Of a stretch of DNA of 64,000 nt, positions 17,771 to 23,296 are shown one piece after another. The DNA comes from Deltaproteobacteria bacterium (GTDB lineage: Bacteria; JAGRBM01; JAHCIT01). Below the pieces are notes generated by a model that was not told where the DNA came from, did not search any database, and saw only the letters and a program-made list of their open reading frames with translations. The stretch spans positions 1-64,000 of the forward strand of contig JAHCIT010000010.1 of the NCBI GenBank assembly GCA_026129095.1. The letters run 5' to 3'. Each line of letters starts with the position of its first letter. Positions within the stretch are counted from its first letter, which is position 1. The position numbers and the translations under genes are program-made.

Positions 17771-18835
17771 GTGGCTGAGACAACAGACGATACAAGGTTT
17801 GCCAACATTCTGGTCACAGGTGGCTGTGGTTTCATCGGCTCGAACCTGATTCGTGTGCTGACGGAAGAAAACCTGGTCCCGGGGCTTGAGTTTATTGCGA
17901 ACCTGGATGCCCTGACATACGCCGGGAACCGTTCGAACCTGGCCGATCTGGAAGGTGACACCCGCTACCGCCTGATTCATGCCGATATCTGCGATGCCGC
18001 CCGGATGGACAATATTTTCCGGCATGGCCAGTTCGATGCCGTGCTGCATCTGGCAGCCGAAAGCCATGTGGACCGTTCGCTGATGGGGCCGGAGGCGTTC
18101 TTCCGGACGAATGTGATGGGCACGGCCGTAATGCTTGACGCTGCCCGCCGCCACAAGGTCCGGCGATTCGTGATGGTCTCGACTGACGAGGTGTACGGCT
18201 CCCTGCCGGATGACAGCGCATCCCGTTTCCGGGAGACGACACCGCTGGATCCCACTAGTCCCTATGCGGCGAGCAAGGCAGCTTCTGATCTGGCAGCGCT
18301 GAGTTTCGCCAAGAGTTTCGGGATGGACGTGGTGGTGACCCGTTCATCGAACAATTACGGCCCTTACCAGTTTCCCGAGAAGATGATCCCGCTGATGACG
18401 ATCAATGCCCTCAATGATCAGCCCCTGCCTGTGTATGGGGATGGACGAAATATCCGGGACTGGATACATGCCCGTGACCATGCCCGCGGGATTGTTGCAG
18501 CGCTGTTCCGTGGCCGGGCCGGGGCGATCTATAATCTTGGTGCACACAATGAACGCCGGAATCTGGAACTGGTGGAGCGCATTCTCGACATTCTCCAGAA
18601 ACCCAGGTCACTGATCCGGTTCGTCACAGACCGGGCGGCACATGATCTGCGATATGCCATTGACGCCACCCGTGCGCGGGAAGAACTCGCATGGGAGCCT
18701 CAGGCTGATTTTGGCGGAGCGTTTGAGCAGACGGTTCGCTGGTACGTGGATAACCGTGCATGGTGGGAGGCAATCATTCATGGCCCCTACCGGGACTACT
18801 ACCGGAAGCTGTACGGCGAGAGGCTGGCGGGTTAG
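17771..18835 (+). CDS. rfbB: dTDP-glucose 4,6-dehydratase
   Basis: An extended-SDR enzyme that converts dTDP-glucose to dTDP-4-keto-6-deoxyglucose for deoxysugars of surface glycans. Visible motifs are TGGCGFIGSNLIRV (NAD binding), AAESHVDRS, STDEVYGS, the catalytic SPYAASKAASD and the late DIRDWIHARDH-type segment (NIRDWIHARDHARG). GGGAGG seven bases before the GTG at 17771 supports that start; upstream in-frame starts give a hydrophobic tail unlike the family. Other rml genes are not adjacent. Its TAG stop overlaps the TAA of the convergent gene. Confidence 0.9.
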   Translation: MAETTDDTRFANILVTGGCGFIGSNLIRVLTEENLVPGLEFIANLDALTYAGNRSNLADLEGDTRYRLIHADICDAARMDNIFRHGQFDAVLHLAAESHVDRSLMGPEAFFRTNVMGTAVMLDAARRHKVRRFVMVSTDEVYGSLPDDSASRFRETTPLDPTSPYAASKAASDLAALSFAKSFGMDVVVTRSSNNYGPYQFPEKMIPLMTINALNDQPLPVYGDGRNIRDWIHARDHARGIVAALFRGRAGAIYNLGAHNERRNLELVERILDILQKPRSLIRFVTDRAAHDLRYAIDATRAREELAWEPQADFGGAFEQTVRWYVDNRAWWEAIIHGPYRDYYRKLYGERLAG

Positions 18836-19791
18836 CGCACGACTTTCACGTCGTGTTTTTCCTCGGCAGCGAATACGAGCGCATTTACTGCGACATCTTC
18901 CAGCCGGCCAATCCGCTTCAGGATGGCGAGGTTGATTCCCAGTTCGTAGTTTTTGGGCCATTCCATGGGTAACTGCTCAATGGGACTGCCAAGCAGTACC
19001 CGACTGGCCATTTCTGCAAGCTGGAGTCCGGCTGCATGGCCGGATGGGGACAGCGAGATGGAAGCTCCGGCATTCACATGGACCGGGTTGAAGGTATATA
19101 GCGGCGTGCTTTCCCGGAGCGAGAATCTCAACAGTTCACGCAGGTTGTCAGACTTCAGGATCATCGGGTCATCGGGAACCCAGAGCATCTCCACCTTGCC
19201 TGCGAGGTTTGCGAGTGCGCGCTCGACATCCTGATCGACGTCCACCTTGAACTTGAACATGGCGACGCCAGCCTCACGGGCGGCCTCTTCCATCCAGTTC
19301 ACTTCAAACCCGGAGTTGCTGGGATTGTAGACGACGCCCACCCGCCGCATGCCGGGATAGATCTTGCGGAGCATGGCGATCTGTTCCTGGGCACGAATCG
19401 TGTAGTTGATGCCGCGCATTCTGGGTCCCCTGAGCTGGGTGGTCTGGGTATCCACGGCATAGGTAAAGAGCACTGGTGTATCGGTGAGCAGCTCCCGGGC
19501 GACCATTGCGGCCCGGGTGCCCAGAGCCACGACAAGGGCAGGTTTTGCCTTGTTTAGCTCCTGGAGCTGCTTGCGGAGCGTTTCGCGTTCGGATGGCAGC
19601 TCCACCAGTTCGATGGGACGGATGAGGGCCATGCCCTTTTTGAACCCCTCGATAAGAGCCAGCATCTGCGAATCGGCGTCGGAGTAGAGCACCCTTACGG
19701 GTTCCTGTGCTCGGGTTATTCCAGGTAACACGAGGAGAACAAACAGGGCGGTTAACGTGCCAAGAGCGGCAAAATGGCGGATGTGGCGCAT
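18832..19791 (-). CDS. orphan ABC_sub_bind periplasmic substrate-binding protein
   Basis: A signal peptide (RHFAALGTLTALFVLLVLPG, cleavage near RAQ) precedes a two-lobed periplasmic protein (ALVVALGTRAAMVARELL, VGVVYNPSNSGFEVNW, SLSPSGHAAGLQLAEMA). This matches the ABC_sub_bind/DUF534 family, related to amino-acid and sugar-binding type-1 proteins. I chose the ATG at 19791 because it begins the signal peptide. No ABC permease or ATPase is nearby, so it may act as a sensor. It follows the pseudokinase-FGE gene by 13 bp and is probably co-transcribed. Confidence 0.85.
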   Translation of the reverse strand: MRHIRHFAALGTLTALFVLLVLPGITRAQEPVRVLYSDADSQMLALIEGFKKGMALIRPIELVELPSERETLRKQLQELNKAKPALVVALGTRAAMVARELLTDTPVLFTYAVDTQTTQLRGPRMRGINYTIRAQEQIAMLRKIYPGMRRVGVVYNPSNSGFEVNWMEEAAREAGVAMFKFKVDVDQDVERALANLAGKVEMLWVPDDPMILKSDNLRELLRFSLRESTPLYTFNPVHVNAGASISLSPSGHAAGLQLAEMASRVLLGSPIEQLPMEWPKNYELGINLAILKRIGRLEDVAVNALVFAAEEKHDVKVVR

Positions 19792-19804: not shown

Positions 19805-22054
19805 TTACTTGCAGCACCGGTATCCGATCTGTGGATCCCGGGTCGAGGGCTGGAAACTCTCACGGTAGGCACAGCGGGTCGCCCAGTCGGGCCGGGCATG
19901 GGAACCGCCGCGCACCACCTTGTCACCACTCTGTTCCGACCAGGCGGTTGATGTCCACTCTCTCAGATTGCCTGACAGATCGAAGGCCCCGTAAGGATTG
20001 GTACACTGGTTGAATCGACCGGCCGGGGCCAGCGGACGGTCTGCGCCGGACTGGTCGCGGGTATTGCAGGCGCGGGGATTGAACAGGTCGCCGTACGGGT
20101 AGCGGGTTTCCTTGGGCCCCTTGCAGGCCTTTTCCCATTCAGCTTCGGAACAGAGGCGCTTGCCCTCGCTCTCGCAGGCAGACTTTGCGTCGTTCCAGGT
20201 CACGTTGGCCCGGGGCTGGGAGCCTTCCTGGTTGGGCGATTCATATTTGTCGATGCAGAAATCCGGCACACCAGTCGGAACCAGTGTCTTTTCGGCAAAA
20301 TCACGGGCGCTGTCGTCCGCCGCCGACCCCATCTTGAAACTGCCGCCCGGTACAAAGGCCATTCCGGCTGGGCACCTGCCAGAAGGAGCAGGCGGGGGCG
20401 GATCGGCGGCAGCAACAGGCTTGGGCTTTTCCGGCTCTTTCGGTGGTGCCTTGGGCTCGGGCTTTGGCACAGGCGGAGGAGGTGGCTTGGGTGCCGTTTC
20501 GACTTTCGCCGGTTTGGTTTCAACTGGCGGTTTCGCGGCCGGTTCAGGCGTCGAGATTGAGACGGATGCGGTGGGGGCTGGCGGCGCGGGAGGAGTTTCC
20601 TCGACCTTTACTGGTTCAGGTTTGGCTGGAGGTGGAGGCGCTGTGGGCTTTTCTTCTTTCACGCTGGTCACAGGCTCGGAACTGGCGACTGGAACGGGCT
20701 CATCGCCACCCTTCAGCGCGAAATAGGCGCCCACCGCGGCCAGTATAGCGACCATTGCCACAATCAGGGCGACCGGTGGGCCCTTCTTGGCCGCCGGTGG
20801 CTGCCAAGTGTCTGGTATGGCTGCCGGTGGAGGCGCAGCGGGTCTCGGTGCGGAAGGAGCAGATGGCGGCACCTGGGCCGGAGGTGGTGGCTGGGGCGCT
20901 GGCGTCTGAGGCCGTGGCGGTGGTTCGGGCTCGGTCCTGGGCAGCGGCTCTGCTTTTGCCGGTGGAGGCGGCTCGGCGGGTTTTGGCGGTTCTAGTGGCT
21001 TGGAGGCAGCCCTTTCCGCCGGGGGAGGAGGAGGCGGTGGCGGTGGGGGGGCGGCCTTCTTTGGCACTGGCGGCTTCGATACGGGCTTGGGCGTCGGCGG
21101 GGCCGCGACCTTTTCTGCGGCAAGCAGGGCGTCTCGCCAGCGAGTGAGCACTTCGCCCGCGGTAGTGGGCCGCTGCCGGGGGTCTTCGGAAAGGCAGTCG
21201 GCGATAAGATCGTCGATCTCGTCAGGGACTTCTTCCATGACGTCCGAGGGCGAAATCCCGGGTGCCGGGGTTTGCAGCGAGATCATCTCAAACAGCACCG
21301 CACCCAGGCTGTAGATATCGTCCGAGGGAGAAGGCGTTTCTCCCGAGAGGAACTGCGGGGATGCGTAAGCCGCTGTCCGGTGCCGGGCGGCCGCTGCCTG
21401 GCGGCTGGCCGGAGGAATCAGGGCCGAGAGGCCAAACTCGGTCAGCTTCAGCCCTTCAGGCTGAATGAGGATGTTGGCAGGTGTCAGCGCCAGATGCGGG
21501 ACACCTGCGGCATGCCCGGCCTCGAAGGCCGAGACGATCTGCGCAAGAATCGGCTCAACCTCGCTCAGCTTGAAAGGCCGCCGCTCGGAGAGCCGAACGT
21601 CGAGGAGCTTGCGTAGCGACAGGCCGCCGATGAACTCCATTGTGACATAGGCGCGAGCACCGTCCGTTCCCGCTTCATAGAGCTTGACGCACCCGGCATG
21701 CAGTACGTCACGGCTCTTGCGGAACAGGGACTTGAACTGCTTGCGGGAGCCCTCGTCGCTAAGCCATTCGGAATTGACGATCCGGAGAGCGATCTGTGCG
21801 TCCACGTCACGGTCGTGGGCCCGGTAAACGTGGCCAACCAGGCCTTCGCCGATATCTCCACGGATTTCGTAACGCTGGGCGAGAATGTCACCGGTTTTGA
21901 TCTGGCCGCCGCCACTACCGTCCGCTGAAGGCTGCTCGGCGCCGCAGGTGTCGCAGACGGGAGCCGGGTCCGGAATCGAATCACCGCAGTTCCAGCACGT
22001 CTTCAAGATCCGATGCGCCCCCTGGATAGCCTTAAAATACGCCGGTACGCGCAT
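19805..22054 (-). CDS. membrane pseudokinase fused to an FGE/sulfatase-modifying-factor domain
   Basis: Order: a C4 zinc ribbon (C20, C23, C34, C37), a Ser/Thr-kinase-like domain (about 60-310), a long Pro/Ala-rich linker, a membrane helix (about 426-446), a second Pro-rich linker and an FGE-type domain (about 558-749, from CPAGMAFVPGGSFKMGS). The glycine loop is kept, but the kinase Lys is Arg (R91), HRD is HLA (187-189) and DFG is EFG (206-208). It is therefore probably a pseudokinase. The FGE domain has one Cys where catalytic FGEs have a copper-binding pair (RCAYRESF), so it is likely non-catalytic too. With one membrane helix, the kinase part would be cytosolic and the FGE part periplasmic. 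Confidence 0.85.
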   Translation of the reverse strand: MRVPAYFKAIQGAHRILKTCWNCGDSIPDPAPVCDTCGAEQPSADGSGGGQIKTGDILAQRYEIRGDIGEGLVGHVYRAHDRDVDAQIALRIVNSEWLSDEGSRKQFKSLFRKSRDVLHAGCVKLYEAGTDGARAYVTMEFIGGLSLRKLLDVRLSERRPFKLSEVEPILAQIVSAFEAGHAAGVPHLALTPANILIQPEGLKLTEFGLSALIPPASRQAAAARHRTAAYASPQFLSGETPSPSDDIYSLGAVLFEMISLQTPAPGISPSDVMEEVPDEIDDLIADCLSEDPRQRPTTAGEVLTRWRDALLAAEKVAAPPTPKPVSKPPVPKKAAPPPPPPPPPPAERAASKPLEPPKPAEPPPPAKAEPLPRTEPEPPPRPQTPAPQPPPPAQVPPSAPSAPRPAAPPPAAIPDTWQPPAAKKGPPVALIVAMVAILAAVGAYFALKGGDEPVPVASSEPVTSVKEEKPTAPPPPAKPEPVKVEETPPAPPAPTASVSISTPEPAAKPPVETKPAKVETAPKPPPPPVPKPEPKAPPKEPEKPKPVAAADPPPPAPSGRCPAGMAFVPGGSFKMGSAADDSARDFAEKTLVPTGVPDFCIDKYESPNQEGSQPRANVTWNDAKSACESEGKRLCSEAEWEKACKGPKETRYPYGDLFNPRACNTRDQSGADRPLAPAGRFNQCTNPYGAFDLSGNLREWTSTAWSEQSGDKVVRGGSHARPDWATRCAYRESFQPSTRDPQIGYRCCK

Positions 22055-22211: not shown

Positions 22212-22958
22212 TTAGTTTACCCAGCCCCCGGACGGGGGCTCATCGTTTCTGTCTACCACTCTGAAGCCCTGTCTTTTCCGCAACCGGTTCAGTTTGGCCC
22301 GGTAGTAGCGTTCCCGCAGGCCGAACCCGCGGAAGCGGTGCCGTCCGCGGGCCCAGTACCAGGCGACCGGAGCCCCCCCGAGGACATACAGGATACGGGC
22401 CAGGGAGAACTGGCGCTCGATCTCGCTGAACACGACGACCGCCACGATAACGATGACGAGCCATTTCACCTTGATGGGCAGGACGAAGAAGGCGAGGATT
22501 TCCTGCTCCGGTTCGCGCAGTGCCCAGAGGATGAGGAAGTTGACAATAAGTCCTCCTGCTCCGGCGGCAATTGCTGTATGGCTCCCTGTGAAGGCGGCTG
22601 CGATGGCTCCTAGCAGTCCTGCGGACAGGGCCGAAAAGCAGAGAAACCAGGCGAAACGTTCCGAGCCATCGATCCGTTCCTGGCGGGCTCCAAATACCCA
22701 GAGCATGTAGCCATAGAGCAGGGTGGTAATGATGGACGTGTTGACAAACGGGAAGGTGAGCAGCCGCCAGACCTGAAATCCCTGGAGCGCGGCCACCGGG
22801 TCCAGGATGAGAAAAGCAGTTAATGCAGGCGATACGAGCGACAGCAGATAGACCGATGCGATGGTGACGATGACGATACGGGTGACGCCGGGGATGGCAC
22901 TCCAGCCCGGAGGGCCCTGAAAACGGTATTGCGTCTGATGTGGACCGTAAGGAGCCAT
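22212..22958 (-). CDS. rhomboid-like membrane protein lacking catalytic residues
   Basis: At 248 residues with about six membrane helices, the fold pattern is rhomboid: VWRLLTFPFVNTS, an early helix pair, and GAGGLIVNFLILW where GxSGxxxxL is expected. The nucleophile Ser is Gly (G135), and the His before LGG is Val (V192 in YVLGGAPVAW). It should not be a protease, in line with pseudo-rhomboids such as Derlins that bind or handle membrane proteins. The C-terminal part is basic and cytosolic. It lies 158 bp upstream of the pseudokinase gene on the same strand. Confidence 0.7.
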   Translation of the reverse strand: MAPYGPHQTQYRFQGPPGWSAIPGVTRIVIVTIASVYLLSLVSPALTAFLILDPVAALQGFQVWRLLTFPFVNTSIITTLLYGYMLWVFGARQERIDGSERFAWFLCFSALSAGLLGAIAAAFTGSHTAIAAGAGGLIVNFLILWALREPEQEILAFFVLPIKVKWLVIVIVAVVVFSEIERQFSLARILYVLGGAPVAWYWARGRHRFRGFGLRERYYRAKLNRLRKRQGFRVVDRNDEPPSGGWVN

Positions 22959-23002: not shown

Positions 23003-23296
23003 CTATTTCTTGCCGAACAGTCCTTCGAGCGCGGCCTTGGCCTTTGCCTTGGGGTCCGTTTTTCCAGAGGGATCACCGCTGGTGCGGATATGGAACCAGT
23101 CGCAGAAGTTTGGCCGGTCCTTGTCCACCACGCGGTCAGCCTGGGGCTCTCGGCATTCATTGTAGGCACTGGTGTCATAGTGCCTGCAGTGCAGGCAGAC
23201 ATGAAGGTCGGCGCCGCACACCTGGCAGGTGTCGCGGCGGCCGACCGGTTCAGTGACGGAGATGGTTTTTCCGCAGGCGGGGCAGGGAACTTCCAT
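23003..23296 (-). CDS. small multi-cysteine zinc-ribbon protein
   Basis: A 97-residue protein with CxxC pairs at CPACG, CQVCG and CLHC plus two further cysteines (NECRE, NFCDW). It could hold two or three zinc ions. The end KTDPKAKAKAALEGLFGKK is basic. There is no signal peptide. I recognise the type (short bacterial zinc-ribbon protein of unknown role) but not a function. It is the upstream neighbour of the rhomboid-like gene, 44 bp away, so an operon is likely. Confidence 0.75.
   Translation of the reverse strand: MEVPCPACGKTISVTEPVGRRDTCQVCGADLHVCLHCRHYDTSAYNECREPQADRVVDKDRPNFCDWFHIRTSGDPSGKTDPKAKAKAALEGLFGKK

Follow-up and report, generated by a model that had tools for sequence, protein, structure and literature searches.

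Fusions of a Ser/Thr kinase with a C-terminal domain of the formylglycine-generating enzyme (FGE) superfamily have been known in bacteria since 2005, when kinase-DUF323/FGE (NirV-like) fusions were described in Chlamydiae (Krupa & Srinivasan 2005, PMC1262709). Bacterial pseudokinases have in turn been catalogued in families such as ActPs1-3, GLW, CP1, DYD and DLHK, and the main text of that catalogue calls experiments on them sparse (O'Boyle et al. 2025, PMC12599244). Here we analysed a 64,000-nucleotide stretch of the Deltaproteobacteria bacterium contig JAHCIT010000010.1 (the window), in which a gene for a zinc ribbon-pseudokinase-transmembrane-FGE-like receptor is followed directly by a gene for a secreted protein of the ABC_sub_bind family. 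Kinase-FGE fusions and bacterial pseudokinases were thus already known, and what is new here is the linkage of the receptor gene with the secreted ABC_sub_bind gene. The reading we lean towards, with some reserve, is that of a non-phosphorylating, nucleotide-binding pseudokinase receptor that would act with the secreted binding protein, the two probably forming a sensing pair.

An earlier note on this DNA, which also mentioned the known kinase-FGE fusions, had described the zinc ribbon, the degraded kinase, the membrane helix and the FGE-like domain, and all four were seen by Pfam and in the sequence; the partner gene just downstream had escaped it. The features of the pair, all on the minus strand, are as follows.

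19805..22006 (-), receptor gene: zinc ribbon, pseudokinase, Pro-rich linker, transmembrane helix, Pro-rich linker, FGE-like domain
21941..21997 (-), zinc ribbon CWNCGDSIPDPAPVCDTCG: Pfam Zn_Ribbon_1, residues 20-40
21119..21892 (-), pseudokinase domain: Pfam Pkinase 5.7e-31, residues 62-299; structure model; residue census
20714..20776 (-), transmembrane helix: from sequence, residues ~427-447, with AAKK just before
19808..20380 (-), FGE-like ectodomain: Pfam FGE-sulfatase 3.7e-31, residues 609-748; ten conserved cysteines; structure model
18832..19791 (-), partner gene, ABC_sub_bind (PF04392): Pfam 4e-27; signal peptide MRHIRHFAALGTLTALFVLLVLPGITRAQ

The open reading frame (ORF) at 19805-22054 (minus strand) encodes 749 amino acids and is open up to an ATG at 22054, but the true start of the receptor is likely the TTG at 22006 (MKTCWNCG...), because the same-order orthologue begins there. 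The zinc-ribbon match reaches 19 bits, under the curated cut-off of 25 bits, and its CxxC..CxxC pattern is kept in about 77 of 84 homologues. Two Pro-rich linkers (51 of 119 and 39 of 106 residues are Pro) flank the transmembrane helix, and by the positive-inside rule the N-terminus would lie inside. A scan for sigma-70 promoters found none.

In one chain, the window protein thus joins a Ser/Thr kinase fold to a C-terminal FGE-superfamily domain, as do the chlamydial fusions of the Pkn1 kind, for which the available part of the 2005 paper mentions neither a zinc ribbon nor an ABC_sub_bind partner (PMC1262709). The present family is marked instead by the loss of the alphaC-Glu and the HRD-Arg and by ten ectodomain cysteines, and the likeness between the two is one of domain order. 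The receptor kinases PknB, StkP and PknA, which gave the best sequence and fold matches, have the same layout of an N-terminal cytosolic kinase, one transmembrane helix and an extracytoplasmic sensor; in the window family, however, an FGE-like domain takes the place of PASTA repeats, a zinc ribbon stands at the N-terminus, and catalytic residues are lost or relaxed.

The kinase domain of the window copy keeps an intact Gly loop (GEGLVG), while the b3 Lys is changed to Arg91 (IALRIV), HRD to HLA at residues 187-189 (HLALTPAN) and DFG to EFG at residues 206-208 (TEFG), all as read previously. In addition, the alphaC-Glu position is occupied by Leu110. With Arg, Leu, Ala, Asn and Glu at the positions of the b3 Lys, alphaC-Glu, HRD-Asp, Asn and DFG-Asp, the domain lacks the residues of an active Hanks-type Ser/Thr kinase, and its kinase fold with all three catalytic motifs changed qualifies it as a protein pseudokinase. 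The structure model of this domain (pLDDT 93.3) matched the folds of PknA, PknB and PknI. The change of b3 Lys to Arg is also known from ActPs2 (PMC12599244, main text). Conservation of the triple substitution among orthologues, which the earlier note had proposed as a check, was not borne out: the b3 Arg was found in the window copy alone among 84 family members, and the nearest relative has Lys, HGD and EFG. Judged by its residues, the window copy is the family's extreme in kinase substitutions, and even its predicted nucleotide binding, a capacity retained by only some pseudokinases, may be weakened, given Arg for the b3 Lys and Glu for the DFG-Asp.

To place this copy within its family, we counted the catalytic residues over 84-85 homologous ORFs. 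As a control, 42 further kinases encoded at these loci were fitted to the same alignment model and counted likewise. The losses computed against these controls fell on particular positions. The alphaC-Glu was retained in 18/84 members vs 39/40 control kinases, the HRD-Arg in 2/84 vs 37/41, and the catalytic HRD-Asp in 54/84 vs 40/41. Within the family, the b3 Lys (83/84), the Asn (83/84) and the DFG-Asp (76/84) were largely kept; all three stand together in 76 of 84 members, including 24 of the 30 without the catalytic Asp, a set that the window copy lacks. On a family tree built by a quick method with the motif columns removed, which has several long branches and gives no direction of change, the state of the catalytic Asp switches 14 times, at least 10 of them on starred branches, and the sisters L216 and L217 (HSD and HSN) differ at this residue over a very short tree distance. 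The simplest reading of this residue pattern is that selection may have maintained a fold able to hold nucleotide rather than phosphotransfer. A mixed make-up is known from CP1, a family of which about 40% are pseudokinases (PMC12599244, main text).

The ectodomain belongs to the FGE-sulfatase superfamily (PF03781), with 109.1 bits vs a cut-off of 23.3, and its model (pLDDT 96.8) matched the folds of CalU17, SUMF2, FGE and PvdO, with a TM-score of ~0.8 by query length against FGE, SUMF2 and PvdO. In the alignment to human FGE, the Cys of TRCAYR falls on C346 and that of GYRCC on C365, which we take to be structural, and both C336 and C341, presumably the copper cysteines, in agreement with the C336S and C341S entries, are missing from the window protein, which therefore does not qualify as a SUMF1 by its residues. 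The claim that one of the paired cysteines was missing is thus to be corrected to both, and the view of the domain as non-catalytic holds for the whole family: the copper-cysteine stretch is without any Cys in all members (82/85 by pattern and the other 3 by eye). From this residue pattern, the FGE-like domain cannot be a formylglycine-generating enzyme. SUMF2/pFGE (PDB 1y4j), which has an FGE fold without FGE activity, is the closest solved sequence (E 2.9e-14) and the second-best fold match, but it is only ~23% identical and shorter, and the window protein is fused to a transmembrane helix and a pseudokinase and has ten cysteines of its own. These ten cysteines are kept in 83-85 of 85 members and are the only ones that the window protein has outside the membrane, consistent with five predicted periplasmic disulfides. 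A hypervariable ligand-binding role like that of the variable proteins of diversity-generating retroelements, raised by the common fold, was rejected because the ectodomain shows strong conservation, with a mean column identity of 50%.

The partner gene starts with an ATG at 19791, 13 bp past the receptor stop. Among 89 distinct receptor ORFs, 84 had enough downstream flank or a match, and in 41 of these 84 distinct loci an ABC_sub_bind gene lies directly downstream of the receptor, although at one of these loci, L193, the match is weak (25 bits). In another two of the 84, a TonB-dependent receptor gene separates the pair, and one has just a fragment-like ABC_sub_bind match. In the closest relative (G001), the ABC gene is split by a contig break: one contig ends with the receptor and the first part of the ABC gene, and another begins with the remainder. 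In the reverse comparison, a profile built from these binding proteins gave 58 strong matches (>=266 bits, 146 genomes), of which 55 lie right behind a receptor, as read from coordinates, with six doubtful cases fetched and confirmed. The partner falls within PF04392, as do the TrpX-type ABC binding proteins (NF041285), but it scores 68.8 bits for the TrpX family vs a cut-off of 390, and no permease or ATPase gene was found among the examined neighbours of the receptor/ABC_sub_bind loci, so that it does not qualify as part of a tryptophan ABC transporter. In all, two PF04392 genes were found in the window's own genome; the second (G000:C4:65737-66591, L267) scores 274 bits to the receptor-linked profile, and no receptor domain was found beside it.

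Put together, these observations suggest a single-pass membrane receptor with the zinc ribbon and pseudokinase inside and the Cys-rich FGE-like domain outside. The secreted ABC-type binding protein would capture a small ligand and dock on the receptor, and the pseudokinase, together with the zinc ribbon, would relay the signal to a putative cytosolic partner by a change of shape or partners, not by phosphorylation. The idea of a periplasmic signal passed to the cytosol through non-catalytic modules, already put forward in the earlier note, is supported, with its inward direction a presumed one.

Several observations weigh against this reading. No ABC_sub_bind gene was found nearby in 40 of the 84 loci, and in the phylum of genome G021 it is located elsewhere. 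The state of the catalytic residues and the linkage to ABC_sub_bind did not correlate beyond chance (median p 0.5). In G118, which is without a full receptor, a transmembrane kinase-like ORF lacking the FGE domain (L270:2280-4239) immediately precedes an ABC gene from the receptor-linked subfamily, which suggests that docking on the FGE domain may not be needed everywhere; the remaining two of the 58 strong matches (G065 and G080) have neither a receptor nor a transmembrane kinase-like ORF upstream. Finally, the b3 Lys, HRD-Asp, Asn and DFG-Asp are all present in 52 of 85 homologues, some of which are possibly active.

The last of these counts bears on a rival in which the majority of the family would be active, if atypical (non-RD), PknB-type Ser/Thr receptor kinases and the window copy a case of lineage-specific decay. 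Non-RD kinases with activity exist, for example PknG, and the nearest relative of the window protein retains both Lys and HGD. The alphaC-Glu is missing in 66/84, however, and the catalytic Asp differs between the near-identical sisters L216 and L217 with the rest unchanged, and we regard this rival as rather unlikely, if the most serious of those weighed here. Orthologues with an intact catalytic set had been named beforehand as evidence against the pseudokinase idea; the 52 of 85 are such orthologues as far as these four residues go, but the idea survives family-wide because the complete set including the alphaC-Glu is found in only 9 of 84. The loci without the partner, together with the fact that ABC genes of this subfamily can sit elsewhere, would also fit a functionally unrelated neighbour, such as a transporter binding subunit sharing the operon by chance. 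Against this, the linkage recurs in distant phyla, with other outer neighbours and even with an inserted gene, the 55 of 58 adjacent matches come from one phylum, and the neighbours examined held no transporter genes of the kind named above, which leaves such a coincidence very improbable.

Other genes around the pair bear on a further possibility, namely that the protein is a structural scaffold in envelope biogenesis and not a sensor, its pseudokinase and FGE-like domains bridging proteins across the membrane like EssB/YukC in type VII secretion. A transmembrane pseudokinase that serves as a scaffold is known in EssB/YukC (PMC12599244, main text), and an M23 peptidase gene lies upstream in Myxococcota-like loci, but ligand handling is suggested by the linkage with a family of ligand-binding proteins and, for two phyla, with a TonB-dependent receptor, and we consider a scaffold improbable. 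In L112, L115 and L271 (two other phyla), the binding-protein gene is immediately preceded by a TonB-dependent receptor gene, which in L112 and L115 has the kinase-FGE gene on its other side. The pair often has dUTPase and M23 peptidase genes upstream and an adenylosuccinate lyase gene downstream, as in L173, L182, L214 and related Myxococcota-like loci.

The rhomboid, Spy-like and RfbB neighbour genes of the window were not common to other receptor loci. Just upstream of the receptor lies the gene of a rhomboid/Derlin-like membrane protein (22212-22958, minus strand; Pfam Rhomboid 8e-11, DER1 1e-6), which may be inactive because, by eye, GAGG replaces the GxSG serine site and a C-terminal histidine was not seen. 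A 97-aa Cys-rich protein (23003-23296, minus strand) had no Pfam or NCBIfam match; its homologues in L031, L156/L175, L186 and L188, which belong to the clade whose kinases are most degraded, lie no more than ~0.7 kb behind the receptor.

Homologues that match over the full length and have the same domain order were found, at 45% identity, in the only other examined genome of the window's phylum and also in further phyla. A receptor profile built from 15 members matched 123 of 146 genomes of one Myxococcota-like phylum (that of G029) at E<=1e-50, some of these matches being separate stretches of one long protein, and three further phyla gave matches in 8/9, 2/2 and 1/1 genomes, a few of them kinase-only. 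The architecture, which had been called unusual, is thus near-universal in one phylum and present in several other, small ones. The literature yielded nothing specific to it, and the main text of PMC12599244, figures and supplements aside, does not mention sulfatase/formylglycine domains, zinc or Myxococcota; the family is widespread in bacteria and apparently undescribed.

A broader proposal, which we put forward only tentatively, is that the pair represents a new transmembrane signalling class, in which the signal of a secreted ABC-type binding protein would reach a zinc-ribbon pseudokinase by way of an ectodomain with the FGE fold. The pseudokinase would serve as a switch that depends on nucleotide but transfers no phosphate, and the class would be near-universal in the large Myxococcota-like phylum and scattered in several others; establishing it as new would take biochemistry. 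The family retains nucleotide-holding residues while the catalytic base changes repeatedly, and is in effect a natural experiment on the importance of phosphotransfer. Its near-universality in a phylum with culturable laboratory species (myxobacteria), together with a gene-linked binding protein, makes this a directly testable question.
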